Source: Altibacter sp. (GTDB lineage Bacteria > Bacteroidota > Bacteroidia > Flavobacteriales > Flavobacteriaceae). From it: DNA of 64,000 nt. Position 1 is the stretch's first letter. The number at the start of each line of letters is the position of its first letter. A program made the translations under genes and the position numbers. This document shows, one piece after another, positions 6,785 through 64,000 of the stretch. Where the stretch lies: assembly GCF_019913785.1 (NCBI RefSeq), contig NZ_JAIOHK010000055.1, positions 186,001-250,000 on the forward strand. Reading direction: 5' to 3'. The notes beneath the pieces are model-generated. The model searched no databases and had not been told where the DNA came from. It saw only the letters and a list, made by a program, of their open reading frames with translations.

Positions 6785-8104
6785 TTACCCCCCAAATATG
6801 GCGCGATAGATATCATTTCCATTTGCAAATAATACCAATGCAATCAACAGGAAGAATCCAACCATTTGTGCGTATTCCATAAACTTATCATTTGGCTTAC
6901 GCCCGCTTACCATTTCATACAGTAAAAACATCACATGACCTCCATCCAAGGCCGGTATCGGGAGTACGTTCATAAAGGCCAATATGATTGAGATGAGCGC
7001 TGTGGTTTGCCAAAAACTCATCCAATCCCAGGTGTCCGGAAACAGATTCCCTATGGCTCCAAAACCACCCAACTGACTCGCCCCTTTCGTGGTAAACACA
7101 TATTTAAATTGTTTTACATAGTCCTTTAGGATATTATACCCAAATCCAACCCCTCCGGTGATGCTTTCTAAAAAAGTATAGTCGAGATGTGTCGTCTTTC
7201 CATAATTATTAACGCCAACAATTCCGTCCTCATTAGGTGTTACATTCATGGTCAGTAGTTGACCATTTCTATCGACTACAATGGTATTCTCCATATCCTT
7301 GTTCTCTACGACATTCATCGTAAACTCATGCCAATACGAAACATCCAAGCCGTTTACCGATATGATTCGGTCTCCTTTCAAAAAACCGGCCATTGCCGCC
7401 GGATACTCTGCAAGCACCGTATCTATCACCGGGTTTCTACGCTCAACAAATGGCTTCAGAATGTCTTTTTTAAACATTTCAGTACCAATATCTTCAGGAA
7501 CCGCAAGTGTTTCGGTGGTGCCGTTCTCGTGTCTTACTTCAATTGAAGTCACATCTCTCAAAAACAGATATTTATTAATATCGGTCACATTTTCAAATAC
7601 ATCTCCGTTTACTTTCAGAATTTGATCTCCGTCCTGAAAACCGTATTGTTTAAATTCTTCAGCAATGGCAAACCCAAGGGGCATATCGGCATTGGTGGTG
7701 ATATTTCTACCGTAAAACCCTAAGATCATAGAATAAATAGCAAAACCAACAATAATATTCACTGTAACACCTCCCAGCATAATGATTAATCGCTGCCAGG
7801 TTGGCTTGCTTCTAAATTCCCAAGGTTGCGGTGGCTGCGCCATTTGCTCCTTGTCCATACTTTCATCGATCATTCCCGAGATTTTCACATACCCTCCCAA
7901 AGGTAACCACCCTATCCCATAGACTGTATCGCCAATCTTTTTCTTAACCAATGCAAATTTCACATCGAAAAACAAAAAGAACTTTTCTACTCTGGTTTTA
8001 AATATTTTAGCGGGAATAAAGTGTCCCAACTCATGCAAAACAATCAATATAGATAAGCTTAAAATAAGCTGAAGTGCCTTCACCACAAATGGAGTCATAG
8101 TCAT
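6785..8104 (-). CDS. rseP: RIP metalloprotease, site-2 protease family (RseP)
   Basis: Intramembrane zinc protease that cleaves membrane-anchored regulators, typically anti-sigma factors, after a first-site cut. The zinc motif HELGH is at 24-28 in the first membrane helix. The third zinc ligand motif is in NVLPIPALDGGH near the C terminus. PDZ-type segments lie between (for example GDQILKVNGDVF and GDRIISVNGLDV), followed by C-terminal membrane helices. At 439 residues it is typical for the family. The start at 8104 (MTMTPF) is supported by a TACTTTTG element about 14 bp upstream; the Met two codons in is also possible. Its target in this window is unknown, although a sigma/anti-sigma-like pair lies at 59232-61314. 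Confidence 0.96.
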   Translation of the reverse strand: MTMTPFVVKALQLILSLSILIVLHELGHFIPAKIFKTRVEKFFLFFDVKFALVKKKIGDTVYGIGWLPLGGYVKISGMIDESMDKEQMAQPPQPWEFRSKPTWQRLIIMLGGVTVNIIVGFAIYSMILGFYGRNITTNADMPLGFAIAEEFKQYGFQDGDQILKVNGDVFENVTDINKYLFLRDVTSIEVRHENGTTETLAVPEDIGTEMFKKDILKPFVERRNPVIDTVLAEYPAAMAGFLKGDRIISVNGLDVSYWHEFTMNVVENKDMENTIVVDRNGQLLTMNVTPNEDGIVGVNNYGKTTHLDYTFLESITGGVGFGYNILKDYVKQFKYVFTTKGASQLGGFGAIGNLFPDTWDWMSFWQTTALISIILAFMNVLPIPALDGGHVMFLLYEMVSGRKPNDKFMEYAQMVGFFLLIALVLFANGNDIYRAIFGG

Positions 8105-56737: not shown

Positions 56738-57769
56738 TTACTTTTTGAATTTTAGTTTTTCTGAACGCCCTTTTTTGAAAATTTTGTTGCTGTTCGGAAT
56801 GCCTTGTCGAAGTCGTTTTTGTTCTCCATAGGGTAATTGAATTATTTCCTGACAATCGGTAGAACAACAGTTTTCCATTTTCAATCCACATGTCTCACAT
56901 TGAATGAAAAGCAAATGGCAGGCTTCATTGGCGCAGTTCACATGGGTATCGCAAGGAGTTCCACATTGGTGGCAATGCGCGATGACCTCATCGGTAATAC
57001 GCTCCCCTCTACGGTGGTCAAAGACAAAATTCTTTCCTATAAATTTATTTTCCAAGCCTTTGTTCTCTACCTGTCTCGCATATTCAATGATGCCGCCTTC
57101 CAATTGATAGACCTGTTTAAAGCCCTTGTGTTTGTAATAGGCACTGGCCTTTTCACAACGAATCCCCCCGGTGCAATACATCACTAGCTTTTTATCCTCC
57201 TTATGGTCTTTTAAATCGGCTTCAATAATGTCTAAAGAATCCCGAAAGGTATCCACATCGGGAGTGATAGCACCTTTAAAATGGCCTATTTCGCTTTCGT
57301 AGTGATTCCGCATATCTACCAAGACCGTATCGGGATCTTCTATTAACTCATTAAAGGTTTCGGCGTTAACGTGAACTCCCTTGTTTCGCACATCAAAGGT
57401 GTCATCATTTAAACCGTCGGCTACAATTTTATCGCGAACCTTTACCTTTAATTTTAAAAATGACTTTAGATCGTGTTCTATGGCAATGTTCAATCGTACC
57501 TCCTTCAGAAAATAAATTCCGTCTAAAAATTCTTTGAACACTGCAAAATGCTTTGCCGGTACCGAAAGCTGGGCGTTAATTCCTTCACGGGCCACATAAA
57601 TTCGGCCAAGTACACCCATCTCGTCCCAGGCGACGAACAAATGATTTCGAAATAATTGCGGATTGCCAATTTTGGCATATTGATAAAAAGAAAGGGTAAG
57701 GCGGTCTTCACCTGCCTGTTCTAATAAGGCTTCCCTCTCTTTTGCACTTAAGGTGTTGTACAGTTGCAT
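56738..57769 (-). CDS. trhO: tRNA uridine(34) hydroxylase TrhO (rhodanese-like, YceA family)
   Basis: 343 residues: oxygen-dependent tRNA U34 5-hydroxylation in the TrhO family. A rhodanese domain has its Cys at C199 in MYCTGGIRCEK, and a C-terminal Cys-rich region follows (CHQCGTPCDTHVNCANEACHLLFIQCETCGLKMENCCSTDCQE). The N-terminal domain is about 110 residues, as in YceA. Isolated on the minus strand, with a 91-bp gap to ricT and a 338-bp gap on the other side. Confidence 0.93.
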   Translation of the reverse strand: MQLYNTLSAKEREALLEQAGEDRLTLSFYQYAKIGNPQLFRNHLFVAWDEMGVLGRIYVAREGINAQLSVPAKHFAVFKEFLDGIYFLKEVRLNIAIEHDLKSFLKLKVKVRDKIVADGLNDDTFDVRNKGVHVNAETFNELIEDPDTVLVDMRNHYESEIGHFKGAITPDVDTFRDSLDIIEADLKDHKEDKKLVMYCTGGIRCEKASAYYKHKGFKQVYQLEGGIIEYARQVENKGLENKFIGKNFVFDHRRGERITDEVIAHCHQCGTPCDTHVNCANEACHLLFIQCETCGLKMENCCSTDCQEIIQLPYGEQKRLRQGIPNSNKIFKKGRSEKLKFKK

Positions 57770-58107
57770 GCTATACTTTTTTGAGTGAAAAGAATTTAAT
57801 ACTAAAATATGACGGCAAAAATACCATTTTTAAGGAAATGGGAAAAACAGTAGTGCAAATCTCTTTTCCTCCTCAAATTCACGAATCGCGATACGTATAC
57901 GTGAATTCGCCAGTTATGGAAGAATCCTTTCACTATGGGAGACGGTCTCGTTTTTTTAAAATTGATTCGGATTGTTGTTGACAAAAAAGCAATTATCCCC
58001 ACATTTCCTTTTGGGGCAACGGCAAAGAAATAGTACCTTAGCATACTCCCTGTGTCAAAGAAATTAACATAGGGAACATCTATTTTTCACCACAAATTTT
58101 TGAATAC
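57770..58107. other. Intergenic region between trhO and recA
   Basis: 338 bp without a convincing gene. It holds short self-complementary segments: ACGTATACGT near 57893-57902, GAGACGGTCTC at about 57941-57951 followed by a T run at 57953-57959 (a weak hairpin), and CCCC..GGGG near 57996-58016. TACCTTAG about 75 bp before recA is close to the -7 consensus. Small ORFs on both strands look unconvincing. Confidence 0.5.
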
Positions 58108-59115
58108 ATGAGCACTGAAAAAGACGCGAAATTAAAAGCTTTAAAGCTTACATTAGATAAATTGGATAAAACATACGGCAAGGGAACTGTCATGAAGATG
58201 GGCGATTCGGCCGTGGAAGAGGTAGAAGTTATTCCTACCGGATCTTTGGGCTTGGATGTAGCCCTTGGCGTAGGTGGCTATCCCAGAGGCCGTGTTGTAG
58301 AGATCTACGGACCGGAATCCTCGGGTAAAACAACCTTAACATTGCACGCCATCGCTGAAGCTCAGAAAAAGGGAGGCATTGCAGCCTTTATTGATGCAGA
58401 ACATGCCTTTGACAGGTATTATGCTGAAAAGCTAGGCGTGGATATTGAAAATTTAATCATTTCACAGCCTGATAATGGCGAACAGGCCTTGGAAATTACC
58501 GATAATTTAATTCGGAGTGGCGCTATAGATATTATTGTGATCGACTCGGTAGCGGCCCTAACGCCCAAAAGTGAGATTGAAGGCGAAATGGGTGACAGCA
58601 AAATGGGATTACATGCGCGATTGATGTCACAGGCGCTTCGGAAATTAACCGGTTCCATCAGTAAAACAAAATGTACGGTTATTTTTATCAATCAGCTACG
58701 TGAAAAGATTGGGGTTATGTTCGGAAATCCCGAAACCACTACCGGTGGGAACGCCTTGAAATTCTATGCATCAGTAAGGCTCGATATTAGACGTTCTACC
58801 CAAATTAAAGATGCCGAGAGTAATGTAAGAGGAAATAAAACGCGTGTAAAAGTGGTTAAAAACAAGGTTGCTCCGCCTTTCAAAATGGCCGAATTCGACA
58901 TTATGTACGGAGAGGGAATCTCCAAAGTAGGTGAAGTGATAGATCTGGGTGTTGACTTTGACATAGTGAAAAAAAGCGGCTCGTGGTTTAGCTATGACGA
59001 CACTAAGTTAGGACAGGGAAGAGACGCCGTAAAAACACTACTATTGGACAACCCTGAACTCATGGACGAATTGGAGCAAAAAATAAAGGAAGCCATTAAG
59101 GCCATGAACCAATAA
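58108..59115 (+). CDS. recA: Recombinase RecA
   Basis: 335 residues. Walker A GPESSGKT at 68-75; Walker B VIDSVAAL; the L2 region with [35 protein letters not shown]; a C-terminal domain ending [14 protein letters not shown]. Strand exchange and SOS coprotease. No LexA-box-like operator was found upstream. Identity is certain. Confidence 0.99.
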
Positions 59116-59231
59116 TTTTACACGTTTCACGCAACCCTTTTCTTAAAAAGGTATCTACTTTACGTAGAACCCTAAATTGTTATGGTTGCCCGCTTAAAAA
59201 GTGTAATTAATAATAATTTTCGGGACTGCAT

Positions 59232-59765
59232 TTGACTTTAGACGAGCTCATATTACAATGTAAGAAGCAGAATACTAAGGCACAGGGAGAATTGTACCAA
59301 CGTTATTCAAGTACACTTTTTTCTATTTGTTTACGGTATTCCCCCAATTATGTAGAAGCAGAAGACAACCTACAAGATGCATTTCTTACCATTTTTAAAA
59401 AAATAGAGCAGTTTAAGGACAAGGGTTCTTTTGAAGGCTGGATGAAACGGGTGACTGTAAATACCGTCCTTCAAAAATACCGGAAACAACGTGTTTTTGA
59501 CATTTCGAATGAGGAGCAGTTAGAAGCTGCCGAAGAAGAACTGGAAGACCAGCATGTTCCGTTGGATTTTTTACTGAAGATCATTCAGGAACTCCCGGAT
59601 CGGTATCGATTGGTTTTTTCCATGTATGTCTTGGATGGATATTCCCACAAAGAAATTGCCGAACTGTTAGGAATTTCGGATGGAACGTCTAAATCGAATC
59701 TAGCAAGAGCACGAGGTATATTAAAGACTAAAATAGAAGACTATAACACGTCAAATAAAGCGTAA
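59232..59765 (+). CDS. ECF-type RNA polymerase sigma factor
   Basis: 177 residues with a TTG start (TTGACTTTAGACGAGC); the next candidate starts are too far in and would remove region 2. Sigma-70 region 2 includes NYVEAEDNLQDAFLTIFKKIEQF and region 4 includes LPDRYRLVFSMYVLDGYSHKEIAELLGIS. The protein begins LTLDELILQCKKQNTKAQGELYQRYSS, as in close flavobacterial relatives. Its 3' end is 7 bp from the ATG of the next gene, so the two form one transcription unit with a probable membrane partner. The signal is unknown. Confidence 0.92.
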   Translation: MTLDELILQCKKQNTKAQGELYQRYSSTLFSICLRYSPNYVEAEDNLQDAFLTIFKKIEQFKDKGSFEGWMKRVTVNTVLQKYRKQRVFDISNEEQLEAAEEELEDQHVPLDFLLKIIQELPDRYRLVFSMYVLDGYSHKEIAELLGISDGTSKSNLARARGILKTKIEDYNTSNKA

Positions 59766-59772
59766 TCGCTAA

Positions 59773-61314
59773 ATGAAAGAAAAAAAGCACATAGATCAGC
59801 TTTTTAAAGATCGCTTCAAAAACTTTGAGGCCTCCCCCTCTCCGCAAGTCTGGGAACAGATTCAAGCGAAATTAAAAGAAGAGAAGGAGGACCGCAAGGT
59901 GATTCCGTTGTGGTGGAAATTGAGTGGTGTGGCAGCATTACTGGCCATTTTATTGACGGTAGGCGTAACGGTATTTAATCCGTTTGACACCAACAATACC
60001 ATTACTACCGAAACCGAAGACAAAACAATTCCGGATCCTACCCATTCGGAACTACAAGATAATCCGCTAAATAATGATTATATTAATGAGACTGTTGTTG
60101 CTTCTGAAGAAAATGATCCTTCCACCAAGGATGCTTCAGAAGCCGCTGCAGTAACCGATGTGGTAAATGCGGAGAAAGAGAAGGATGCGATTCTTAAAAA
60201 ATCCACAGCGGTTAAAAGTGCAGTAGCCATTGAAACCGGTACCGAAAAAGATGTTGCGGCATCACAGAAAAAGGCGGCTATTGACAACTTAATTAAAAAG
60301 GATGCTTCGGAAGGGATTTCGACTAAAAAAGAAGCCGTGGCAATAAATACGGAAGCAGAGACTACTTCAGAAAAAAATAAAACAGCAGTCAAAAAAGAAC
60401 TCGGCATCGAGGAAACCACCAAAGTGGTAACGGCAGATACTGATACAAATCGGACTAAAAATGGTGTTGATCCAAAAACCGAAGCTGAAGCTTCAAAAAT
60501 AGAAGAGGAATCAAAAAAACGTTCCATTCTGGATGCTATCAACGAAAAAAACGAGGTAGAAGCCATTGCTAAGACTTCGGATAAACCCAAAGATCGCTGG
60601 GATGTAGCGCCAAATTTCGCACCCGTTTATTACAATAGTTTAGGAGAAGGTTCGTCTATAGATCCTTCCTTTGCCGACAATAATAAAAAAGGAGATGTCA
60701 ATTTTAGCTACGGAGTTCAGGTGAGCTATGCCCTTAGTAATCGGTTAAAAGTGAGAAGTGGGGTTAGCAATGTAGATCTTAGTTATGCCACTTCCGGCCT
60801 TGAGTTGGGGACTGCCCCTGTTTCGGCCGCCTTAAAATCTATTGATTATGGAGGGCGTCAAGTCGTTGTCACAGCACTGGATAAAGGAACCTTTGCGGCA
60901 CAATCGGGTGAAGGCAACCCCTTTGACAATATCATGCCGAAATCGACTTCCGGTGATGTGGAATTGATACAAAATATTTCCTATTACGAAGTGCCTTTAG
61001 AGTTAACCTATGCGGTGGTGAACAATAAGTTTGGGATCAACCTGATTGGAGGGTTTAGTACACTGTTCTTAGGAAACAACGAAGTTTCGGTACAAGCCGG
61101 AGATTTCAACGATACCTTGGGTGAAGCGAATAATCTATCTTCAGTGAGCTTTACCACGAATGTAGGGCTTGGCTTCGATTATAAAATTAGTAAAAAGTTC
61201 ACGTTTAATATTGAGCCTATGTTTAAATATCAACTCAATCCGTATACAGATTCCTCTGTAGACTTTAAGCCCTATTATGTAGGGATTTACAGTGGCTTGA
61301 GTTTTAAGTTTTAG
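59773..61314 (+). CDS. Membrane partner of the sigma factor: anti-sigma-like N terminus, long linker, C-terminal outer-membrane barrel
   Basis: 513 residues. The cytosolic part (1-47, MKEKKHIDQLFKDRFKNFEASPSPQVWEQIQAKL) resembles anti-sigma entry domains. One membrane helix at 48-69. A charged, repetitive K/E/A/T-rich linker of about 205 residues (70-275). Then a beta-barrel-like domain (276-513) of PorT/OMP_b-brl type (FSYGVQVSYALSNRLKVRSGVS.., GFDYKISKKFTFNIEPMFKYQLNPY) ending in SGLSFKF with the C-terminal Phe of outer-membrane proteins. If the topology is right, one chain would reach from the cytosol to the outer membrane. It is 7 bp downstream of the sigma gene. A terminator follows. Confidence 0.82.
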   Translation: MKEKKHIDQLFKDRFKNFEASPSPQVWEQIQAKLKEEKEDRKVIPLWWKLSGVAALLAILLTVGVTVFNPFDTNNTITTETEDKTIPDPTHSELQDNPLNNDYINETVVASEENDPSTKDASEAAAVTDVVNAEKEKDAILKKSTAVKSAVAIETGTEKDVAASQKKAAIDNLIKKDASEGISTKKEAVAINTEAETTSEKNKTAVKKELGIEETTKVVTADTDTNRTKNGVDPKTEAEASKIEEESKKRSILDAINEKNEVEAIAKTSDKPKDRWDVAPNFAPVYYNSLGEGSSIDPSFADNNKKGDVNFSYGVQVSYALSNRLKVRSGVSNVDLSYATSGLELGTAPVSAALKSIDYGGRQVVVTALDKGTFAAQSGEGNPFDNIMPKSTSGDVELIQNISYYEVPLELTYAVVNNKFGINLIGGFSTLFLGNNEVSVQAGDFNDTLGEANNLSSVSFTTNVGLGFDYKISKKFTFNIEPMFKYQLNPYTDSSVDFKPYYVGIYSGLSFKF

Positions 61315-61369
61315 GTTAGTTTTTTTAGTTGGTTAGGTTTGGAGATTATACCAAACAATGATGACAGAG

Positions 61370-61403
61370 AAAACCGTTCTTCGCCATAGGACGGTTTTTT
61401 TAT
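61370..61403. terminator. Bidirectional terminator
   Basis: AAAACCGT (61370-61377) with ACGGTTTT (61391-61398), extended by three further pairs (one G-T). A T7 run on the plus strand follows; an A run stands on the other side. It overlaps the convergent acyltransferase stop. Confidence 0.85.
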
Positions 61404-62143
61404 ACTCCTTTTTTTAAAGCCGTCCAGATGATATTTCGAATTTGATCCTTGAGTCGACGCTTGTCCTCTATTTCCAGATGCTTTGTAGAAATTGTTTTAT
61501 GAATAGAAACTCTTAATTTCCCCGGCCCCGAACTTACCGATGAAAAATTATACGGAAACCGTTTTTTGTTATCGTGAAAGCTCATGGGTGCTATAGGAAT
61601 ACAATGTTCGATGGCAAGCCGGAAAGCTCCGTCTTTAAATTCGTCCAACAGCACACTTTCATCATCCGGCACACCTCCCTCCGGAAAAATACACACACTT
61701 AGTCCTTGATTAAATTTCTTTTGTGCCCTGTTAAACACATCCGATCTGCTCTTGGGACTATTTCTATCCACCATGATGCAAGTTCGTTTGTAGAAAAATC
61801 CAAATAAGGGAATTTTTTCCAATTCCTTTTTACCCACAAAGACAAAGGGATTTTTGGTGACATATAGCATCAACATAATGTCTAGCATGGAGGTGTGGTT
61901 GGAGACAAACATATAGCTCTTCCCTCTCTTATAGGATTCTTCTCTTTTAACTACAGGCATAAAACCCATACCAAATAAAATGATTGCTGCCCAAAACCGG
62001 GCCAGTCTAAAAAAAAATGGATACCATGCCTCCTTTAATATGCTCACAAGCAAAATGGGAAATAACACCAAAATCGGAACTGTGACCAAGATATAGAACC
62101 AAATGCGGTAAATAGGTGTAAAAATGTAGCGTAGGATTTTCAT
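61400..62143 (-). CDS. Lysophospholipid acyltransferase (PlsC family)
   Basis: 247 residues from the ATG at 62143 (MKILRYIFTP); 20 further codons are open upstream but do not look like a signal and would run into the trpS promoter area. Hydrophobic N terminus (about 10-45), catalytic SNHTSMLDIML, then VFVGKKELEKIPLFGFFYKRT and the FPEGGVPDDES motif. A second member of the family besides 18003-18746, with distinct active-site surroundings. Substrate not certain. Confidence 0.9.
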   Translation of the reverse strand: MKILRYIFTPIYRIWFYILVTVPILVLFPILLVSILKEAWYPFFFRLARFWAAIILFGMGFMPVVKREESYKRGKSYMFVSNHTSMLDIMLMLYVTKNPFVFVGKKELEKIPLFGFFYKRTCIMVDRNSPKSRSDVFNRAQKKFNQGLSVCIFPEGGVPDDESVLLDEFKDGAFRLAIEHCIPIAPMSFHDNKKRFPYNFSSVSSGPGKLRVSIHKTISTKHLEIEDKRRLKDQIRNIIWTALKKGV

Positions 62144-62191
62144 CAAGACCCAAAAATAGCAATAAGAAACATGAGAATACACTAAAAAAAG

Positions 62192-62199
62192 TAACTTTG
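62192..62199 (+). promoter_or_regulatory. -7 element of trpS
   Basis: TAACTTTG, 86 bp before the trpS ATG, giving a leader of about 80 nt. No leader peptide or T-box was recognised in that leader. Confidence 0.45.
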
Positions 62200-62285
62200 C
62201 CAAAATTTAAAGCAGGGAAGTATTCTTTTGAAGCGCATCAAAAAAGGATATATAAAACTGTGATATATTAAATAGAAATTTCAGC

Positions 62286-63254
62286 ATGTCACGAATACTT
62301 ACAGGGATACAAAGCACTGGCACACCACATCTTGGTAATATACTAGGGGCAATTCTTCCGGCTATCGAGATGGCCAATGACCCCAAAAACGAATCCTTTT
62401 TATTTATAGCCGATATGCATTCGCTAACACAGATCAAGGATGCTGAAACACTTCGGAATAATACCTACAGTACCGCTGCAGCATGGCTGGCCTTTGGATT
62501 GGATATTGAAAAAACGGTCTTTTACCGTCAAAGTGATATTCCTCAGGTCACTGAACTCTCTTGGTATTTGAGCTGTTTTTTCCCTTACCAACGCCTTACA
62601 TTGGCACATTCATTTAAGGATAAGGCAGATCGCCTCGAAGATGTGAATGCGGGCTTATTTTCATATCCTATGTTGATGGCAGCCGACATCCTGTTATATG
62701 ATGCCGATATCGTTCCTGTAGGAAAGGATCAACTACAACATTTAGAAATGACGCGCGATGTGGCTTCCCGCTTTCATGCGCAAATGGGAGAAGTTTTTGT
62801 GTTACCCGAAGCAAAGGTGCAGAAAAACACCATGCTTATTCCCGGGACGGATGGTGCCAAAATGAGTAAATCGAAAAACAATATCATCAATATCTTTTTG
62901 TCGGACAAACAGCTCCGAAAACAGGTGATGGGAATTGAAACGGACAGCACTCCCATGGAGGAACCTAAAAATCCGGATACGTGTAATGTCTTTGCCTTGT
63001 ATAACCTATTGGCTACCTCCGAAGCAGTTGCCCAAATGCGAAAGAATTACGAAGGCGGAAATTACGGGTATGGACATGCCAAACAGGCACTTTTCGAACT
63101 AATTACTTCTCGCTTTGCCGAAGAACGAACTCGCTATGCATATTATATGGAACAGCTTTCGGAGGTAGATAAGGCTTTAGAAATTGGTGCTTCGAAGGCC
63201 AGACTTGTAGCAAATGAGGTATTAGATCGGGTTCGTGCCAAAGTAGGTTATTAA
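62286..63254 (+). CDS. trpS: Tryptophanyl-tRNA synthetase
   Basis: 322 residues, class I synthetase. The HIGH-like motif is GTPHLGN in SRILTGIQSTGTPHLGNILG and KMSKS is complete in GAKMSKSKNN. Short, bacterial type. Its stop overlaps the convergent dprA stop by 3 bp. Confidence 0.97.
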   Translation: MSRILTGIQSTGTPHLGNILGAILPAIEMANDPKNESFLFIADMHSLTQIKDAETLRNNTYSTAAAWLAFGLDIEKTVFYRQSDIPQVTELSWYLSCFFPYQRLTLAHSFKDKADRLEDVNAGLFSYPMLMAADILLYDADIVPVGKDQLQHLEMTRDVASRFHAQMGEVFVLPEAKVQKNTMLIPGTDGAKMSKSKNNIINIFLSDKQLRKQVMGIETDSTPMEEPKNPDTCNVFALYNLLATSEAVAQMRKNYEGGNYGYGHAKQALFELITSRFAEERTRYAYYMEQLSEVDKALEIGASKARLVANEVLDRVRAKVGY

Positions 63255-64000
63255 ACCCCTTGGAACAATTTCCCAGGTAAGGGCCGTACCGCGCCCTTTA
63301 ATTCCATATTAAGAAGGATACTTGCTGCCTTAAATGTGGGCATCTTACATGAAAGTGCAATGATGTCTAACGCCTCCTTGTCCCTTTCATTTAAAAAATC
63401 ATAGATTATTTGTTCCTCTTCCGTTAGCTCAATAAAGAGTTTGGTTTGTTGGGGTTTTAAGACCTCTGCTTCGATTTCCCATCCCAACATATAAACAAGG
63501 TCGGCCGCATTGGTCAATGCATGAGCCTGTTGCGATTTTATCAAATTATTACACCCTTGGCTTTGCGTATCTGTTATTCTCCCCGGAACGGCAAAAACAT
63601 CTCTGTGATATGAATTCGCAATATCTGCTGTCACCAAACTTCCTCCCTTTTCAGCCGATTCGATTACGACGGTTGCCTCACTCAATCCGGCAATGATCCT
63701 GTTGCGCTGAAGAAAATTAGCACGGTCAAAGAGATCGGTGCTCCAGAATTCGGTGATAAATCCGCCATTTGCCTTTACACTTGAAACATATTTTTGGTGC
63801 TCTTTAGGGTACACCTGATTAAGACCATGTGCCAGGCAGGCAATAGTTTGCAACCCATTCTTGATAGCTGCCTTATGGGCCGTAATATCCACACCATAGG
63901 CAAATCCTGAAACGATCACAGGGTTTAAAGGCGTTAGTGCTGCGATTAGTTTTTCGCAAAACCCCGATCCATAGGAAGTTACGTTTCGAGTGCCAACAAT
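63251..64000 (-). CDS. dprA: DNA-processing protein DprA (partial, runs off the window)
   Basis: 250 codons are open to the window edge: IVGTRNVTSYGSGFCEKL, then VIVSGFAYGVDITAHKAAI, LAHGLNQVYPKEH and GFITEFWSTD, the Rossmann fold that loads RecA on single-stranded DNA in transformation. The GTG at 63919 is internal, not a start: the frame continues upstream with conserved sequence. The C-terminal winged-helix-like domain (EEEQIIYDFLNERDKEALDIIALSCKMPTFKAASILLNMELKGAVRPLPGKLF) is complete. Confidence 0.94.
   Translation of the reverse strand: MVGTRNVTSYGSGFCEKLIAALTPLNPVIVSGFAYGVDITAHKAAIKNGLQTIACLAHGLNQVYPKEHQKYVSSVKANGGFITEFWSTDLFDRANFLQRNRIIAGLSEATVVIESAEKGGSLVTADIANSYHRDVFAVPGRITDTQSQGCNNLIKSQQAHALTNAADLVYMLGWEIEAEVLKPQQTKLFIELTEEEQIIYDFLNERDKEALDIIALSCKMPTFKAASILLNMELKGAVRPLPGKLFQGV

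Follow-up and report, generated by a model that had tools for sequence, protein, structure and literature searches.

In the window, the whole stretch of 64,000 nucleotides of Altibacter sp. DNA that we analysed, a gene for a Das/EcfO-like ECF sigma factor of 177 aa (59232..59765, + strand, TTG start) is followed after 7 bp by the gene for a 513-aa barrel protein (59773..61314, + strand, ATG start), which ends FKF. The family search matched the first ORF to Sigma70_r2 (1.6e-16), Sigma70_r4_2 (9.8e-18), and the NCBIfam model sigma70-ECF (4.7e-30), and the ORFs and these matches agree with the sequence-only reading of this DNA, which had paired an ECF sigma gene with a 513-residue ORF 7 bp later. 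The neighbours, as named from family matches, are recA, an acyltransferase gene, and trpS; recA (58108..59115, + strand; TIGR02012, 5.1e-171) is the conserved upstream neighbour. The same reading had pointed to rseP as the gene of a possible site-2 protease. It lies on the minus strand at 6785..8104, just where it had been placed, with matches to TIGR00054 (NCBIfam RIP metalloprotease RseP; 1.8e-67, above the cut-off) and Peptidase_M50 (9.5e-48), and RseP is at most a possible partner protease of the sigma/barrel pair. Elsewhere in this genome, two more ECF sigma genes are each followed by a gene for a short membrane protein (L002:1252-2399 and L003:945-2043).

The 513-residue protein is predicted to consist of four parts, all encoded on the plus strand. 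Residues 1-46 (59773..59910) form a cytosolic and presumably sigma-binding segment with two short helices, as judged from the AlphaFold model and from conservation; W27, P22, I30, and L34 are invariant or almost so. Residues 46-69 (59908..59979) are predicted to be an inner-membrane helix with the N-terminus inside, residues 70-275 (59980..60597) a charged and mostly disordered periplasmic tether, and residues 276-513 (60598..61311) an eight-stranded outer-membrane beta-barrel with a terminal Phe. In the model, helices span residues 7-16, 24-35, and 46-68, followed by a short helix at 252-265 and eight long strands within 276-512. The pLDDT is below 50 over most of residues 72-247, modest at 61-78 over residues 1-40, and reaches block means of 85-98 in the barrel.

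A search of solved structures by sequence gave no relative of the whole protein (nine matches, best E 0.1), so a fold search was used instead. For the barrel, it returned a Legionella porin (Z 18.2 over 174 residues), NspA (17.8 over 154), OmpA (17.5 over 165), and OmpW (16.8 over 170), and the family OMP_b-brl_2 (PF13568) matched residues 299-480 at 6.8e-9, above the cut-off. The C-terminal domain, which the sequence-only reading had called barrel-like, is confidently modelled as a barrel of the OmpA/OmpW type. Since the strand number is even, the two ends of the barrel would both face the periplasm, which the tether requires.

Column frequencies among the homologues reveal a short conserved helix in the tether, at about residues 249-260, with the pattern K-x-S-I-x-[DE]-A-I. 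In the window it is encoded at 60517-60552, ahead of the barrel, and the rest of the linker is unconserved; the helix may serve in docking or in the control of a protease. The linker was also searched for D[ST][AILVMT], which we take to be an O-glycosylation motif, and this candidate was rejected, as it occurs 0.80 times per linker versus 0.87 times in shuffled sequences.

The homologue set comprises 90 proteins from 86 genomes, including the protein of the window, and was selected from the same-family genomes with a match (126 of 149). A hydrophobic helix is present in 89 of the 90, the positive charge is higher in the inside flank than in the outside flank in every one, and A-x-A, the signal-peptidase-like pattern, is absent from residues 62-82 in all 90. 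Taken together, these features favour an inner-membrane anchor that is retained and uncleaved, and a cut by signal peptidase after the helix, which would have undone the proposal of an anti-sigma-like start held by a membrane helix, left no trace where it was looked for. We infer the topology of the whole protein from its sequence and the model. Residues 1-46 and 276-513 are conserved in the set, and the linker, 117-265 residues long with a median of 199, is poorly conserved.

The poor conservation of the linker would also be expected if the barrel were cut off constitutively and acted alone, leaving an N-terminal fragment as an ordinary inner-membrane anti-sigma factor, with nothing spanning the envelope. 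This genome in fact encodes a 195-aa protein at L002, beside a paralogous sigma gene, that has a related N-terminus and lacks the barrel, which indicates that the anti-sigma part can stand alone. However, no A-x-A follows the helix in any of the 90 homologues, and both parts are kept in one reading frame in all 90 loci, across linkers of 117-265 residues. We consider constitutive cutting improbable, and prefer the reading in which the intact protein would connect the two membranes.

The gene pairing itself is conserved. In every one of the 90 loci (the window and 89 homologues), the barrel gene directly follows a homologous sigma gene of the same strand, with gaps of -143 to 180 bases between the two when ORF ends are taken mechanically, and a pairing of this regularity is not due to chance. 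The same gene order in relatives had been named as a check on the first reading, and the homologue search bore it out. Farther upstream, recA is found on the same strand in 81 of the 90 loci, and in the first 30 loci, with flanks of 1500 bases, an acyltransferase gene occurs in 28 and trpS in 27. It could still be argued that the 513-residue protein shares an operon with the sigma factor and does not control it, as the NCBIfam "anti-sigma factor" model matches residues 19-70 only weakly (E 0.028, far under the cut-off). Against this stand the pairing in all 90 loci, the conserved cytosolic segment, and the L002 sigma pair in the same genome with its related N-terminus; furthermore, dependence on the sigma factor has been published for relatives, in that the effect of Dma2 loss depends on Das2 (PMC13088901). 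We regard a merely co-operonic barrel protein as very improbable, and control of the sigma factor by the 513-residue protein as the better reading.

Relatives are present at each rank searched, that is, in the family, the class, and the phylum of the window; gene content and relatives suggest that the organism belongs to the Flavobacteriaceae. Within the family, the 23 unmatched genomes are rather small as a group, with 14 of 20 listed ones at 2.2 Mb or below. One genome of 5.4 Mb (G127) was unmatched in the first same-family search and matched with a profile, so genomes unmatched in that first search may still have a homologue. Across the phylum, 81 of 296 genomes matched a profile built from 54 sequences. 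Among 20 weaker phylum loci that were read, with the barrel judged by eye, 17 have a sigma gene beside a protein that by its look combines the N-terminus, a linker, and a barrel; those without this layout are L140 and two loci in which no sigma gene was found (L125 and L127). In the class, 268 of 295 genomes matched a broader profile, although many of these matches cover only part of the protein, the barrel or the N-terminus. At three loci (L180, L183, and L195), a single protein of 547-586 aa combines a sigma domain, a membrane helix, a linker, and a barrel.

The same design has already been described in Bacteroidales. The available part of PMC13088901 describes Dma proteins of B. thetaiotaomicron that have this layout and are encoded beside ECF21 sigma genes, with Dma3 as a fusion of sigma and anti-sigma in one protein; PMC12045153, in the part available, only cites Dma1. 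In P. vulgatus, the anti-sigma protein of a similar pair is predicted to span the periplasm with a barrel at its end, the sigma gene is up 33-fold with BcpT, and a protective regulon is on under BcpT or in strains without a working anti-sigma gene (PMC9308784). The pair was named EcfO-Reo and proposed to sense outer-membrane stress, and NigD was made in broth only when reo was deleted or under stress (PMC13114119). In P. vulgatus, nigD genes belong to the regulon, which is associated with longer O-antigen (PMC9308784, PMC13114119).

The sequence-only reading had proposed a tether and sensor in one polypeptide and had ranked it as an under-described system. The spanning design is sound as judged from the layout, the anchor, and the barrel model, but it is not new: with Dma (PMC13088901) and Reo (PMC9308784, PMC13114119) in print, as far as the available parts of these papers go, the class is already known, and the window pair is a further widespread branch of it. 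Like Dma, the window protein has an N-terminal presumed sigma-binding domain, a membrane helix, a long disordered tether, a barrel, and an adjacent sigma gene. Unlike Dma, its branch is recA-linked and has another upstream sequence, and its genome has no NigD_N match; here Dma1 and Dma2 were compared by description, and the sequence comparison is that with the 80 Bacteroides-type loci below. The window pair shares its layout and gene order with EcfO-Reo of B. fragilis and Phocaeicola vulgatus, whereas the P. vulgatus regulon is marked by nigD and longer O-antigen and the candidate targets of the window pair are kdnA and small lipoprotein-like ORFs. Dma3 resembles the single chains of L180, L183, and L195 and differs from the window pair, which consists of two separate genes. 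In cell-surface signalling of the FecR type, a membrane-anchored anti-sigma factor works with an ECF sigma factor, and a TonB-dependent protein of its own serves as the receptor in the outer membrane. The window system likewise has a membrane-anchored anti-sigma candidate and an ECF sigma factor, but its barrel is part of the same chain. A literature search, which covered mostly top-ranked results and is no proof of absence, found no outer-membrane stress sigma system of the Dma/Reo kind outside Bacteroidales, nor any experiment on the 513-residue protein or its close relatives.

A scan of genome contigs with a Bacteroidales-type alignment yielded 537 loci, of which the best 80, mostly from Bacteroides, were compared with the window family. 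Among these best 80, a sigma gene adjoins upstream in 78, and the window-family profile matches 69 of the proteins, at E up to 0.011, and leaves 11 unmatched. Comparison with the Bacteroides-type alignment by hhalign covered the last ~120 residues, the C-terminal half of the barrel (probability 98.6, E 6.8e-16), and left the N-terminal part of the 513-residue protein unaligned. The homology to the named Bacteroides loci is firm for the barrel and less so for the N-terminus. The window sigma factor is 37% identical to its counterpart in B. fragilis (L217), 40% to that in B. faecis (L261), and 41% to that in P. massiliensis (L283). A predicted model of the B. fragilis L217 protein has the same order of helices and disorder and eight main strands, at a low mean pLDDT of 53.8. 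We assume that L217 is the EcfO-Reo locus. There, the pair lies beside a divergent NigD gene, a LysR-type regulator gene, and a gene for a ferritin-like protein (perhaps Dps), neighbours that would fit the oxidative-stress link of EcfO. The NigD family PF12667 was found in 0 of 29 genomes in one search and in 15 of 396 in another, the genome of the window not among them, and its matches served only to pick out Bacteroides-like genomes.

About 100 bp before the TTG start of the sigma gene, a motif with the -35-like element ACGCAACC and the -10-like element GTATCTA (59129..59157, + strand; C15:245129-245157 in the genome) is predicted to be an ECF promoter. The core GCAAC...ATCT is found in 82 of the 90 loci, with a spacing of 17 bases in 81 and 16 in one, and it follows the gene neighbourhood, as 80 of the 81 recA-linked loci have it and only 2 of the 9 others do. 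The window contains a single match (59131-59157), versus 0.64 expected in shuffled sequences. On both strands of all 90 loci, 791,656 bases in total, GCAACC-N16-ATCT occurs 85 times, so nearly every occurrence is the site ahead of the sigma operon. We read ACGCAACC/ATCTA as an autoregulatory ECF promoter, since a position before the sigma operon, shared by 82 of the 90 loci, points to autoregulation. The distance to the sigma gene is 467-827 bases in 62 of the 82 loci. At L020, L025, and L032, the three of these 62 that were inspected, an ORF of ~136 residues that looks like a lipoprotein lies behind the motif, between recA and the sigma gene (L020:3623-4033); the L020 ORF matched no family above the cut-off, and the window has no ORF of this type between recA and the sigma gene.

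Thirteen near relatives contain 18 copies of the exact motif versus 0 of the backward pattern, and one of the 13 is without any. In the window's own genome, the core occurs 9 times versus 3 in the control, with scores of -2.7 to 30.6. One of the best-scoring core matches (L284, 29.3) sits inside an ORF, which indicates that chance matches occur. With up to two mismatches allowed, there are 6 matches versus 6 in the control, and the regulon is thus poorly defined in this genome. The motif is absent from the Bacteroides-type loci, with a similar string in 1 of the best 80 of 537, and from the two paralogous pairs, where the best scores are -17.9 (L002) and -3.0 (L003). Identity with SM6, an ECF motif of F. 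psychrophilum, was considered and rejected, since SM6 as given in the available part of PMC9723704 has a CGT box, unlike ACGCAACC/ATCTA.

Among the candidate targets, one gene recurs: the motif stands 53-69 bp before what appears to be the same gene in three genomes, that of the window (L296, two mismatches, score 19.5) and those of two relatives (L300 and L315). The L300 protein matches a solved KdnA transaminase over 392 residues at E 6e-149, the next best match being at 2.6e-52. We then scored the kdnA loci of 30 of the 33 genomes with a match. Seven pass, all within the 12 near relatives, and none of the 18 more distant ones do; two of the seven had already been found by the pattern search. 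Neither control gave a pass among 30. The cut-off of 15 was our own choice, and two of the seven passes (16.1 and 15.5) are lower than the lowest training score, 17.4. Moreover, the motif at kdnA overlaps a TAnnTTTG-like box, TACCTTTG or TATCTTTG (box consensus from PMC9723704), and some of its conservation may be due to this box. Because of the chosen cut-off, the passes under the training minimum, and the overlapping box, the link to kdnA, which encodes an LPS-core transaminase, is suggestive only.

Two further sites lie before ORFs of other kinds. In the window's genome and in one relative (L298 and L312), a conserved ORF of 35 residues begins 48 bp after the motif start and shows a hydrophobic stretch followed by Cys; it is possibly an unannotated small lipoprotein. 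On contig C62 (L295), a motif with a score of 26.0 is followed 135 bp later by an ORF that is at least 464 aa long and looks like a multi-helix membrane protein.

These candidates, kdnA and the small lipoprotein-like ORFs, bear on the question of what the barrel would sense. The authors of the Dma work hypothesise glycan sensing by Dma2 (PMC13088901), and the window protein might likewise detect a glycan and not envelope stress. The pair lies among recA, an acyltransferase gene, and trpS, however, and no polysaccharide locus was found around it on reading 57500-64000; the candidate targets are kdnA and small lipoprotein-like ORFs, and the P. vulgatus data (PMC9308784, PMC13114119) point to envelope stress. 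Glycan sensing is, in our judgement, unlikely, though less so than the other two alternatives, and sensing of the state of the outer membrane is preferred.

With a probability of roughly 0.85, we conclude from sequence, model, and analogy that the pair is a sigma/anti-sigma system of the Das/Dma (EcfO/Reo) type, with a tether to both membranes, an outer-membrane sensor, autoregulation, and a small regulon. The gene order, the conserved layout, the barrel model, the homology, and the motif were obtained here. The first ~46 residues of the 513-aa protein would retain the ECF sigma factor at the inner membrane, where a single uncleaved helix would be the anchor, the disordered tether of ~200 residues would cross the periplasm, and the C-terminal eight-stranded barrel would sit in the outer membrane and report its state. 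A disturbance of the outer membrane or of barrel assembly would abolish the anti-sigma function, through either a conformational change or proteolysis, and the sigma factor would be freed. The free sigma factor would then act at the GCAACC/ATCTA promoter to transcribe its own operon, and would also transcribe a small regulon of envelope genes, perhaps with kdnA. We infer this course of events, in which the barrel senses the signal, the anti-sigma function is inactivated, and the sigma factor is released, because of the published genetics of Bacteroidales.

More tentatively, the recA-linked branch may be a self-amplifying outer-membrane monitor common in its family, with the promoter ACGCAACC-N16-ATCTA and an output in the LPS inner core (KdnA, Kdo8N) and in tiny lipoprotein-like products, a picture that we hold to be possible but doubtful. 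No description of the promoter motif and the candidate outputs was found in the literature search, which covered mostly top-ranked results. If this picture is correct, the KdnA/lipoprotein output would differ from that known in Bacteroides, which consists of NigD and vesicles, and should kdnA prove to be a target, the sensor would be tied to a defined change of LPS. The conserved pair and its sharp motif would provide a direct reporter of outer-membrane stress for a large further group of Bacteroidota, extending the Dma idea past gut Bacteroides.
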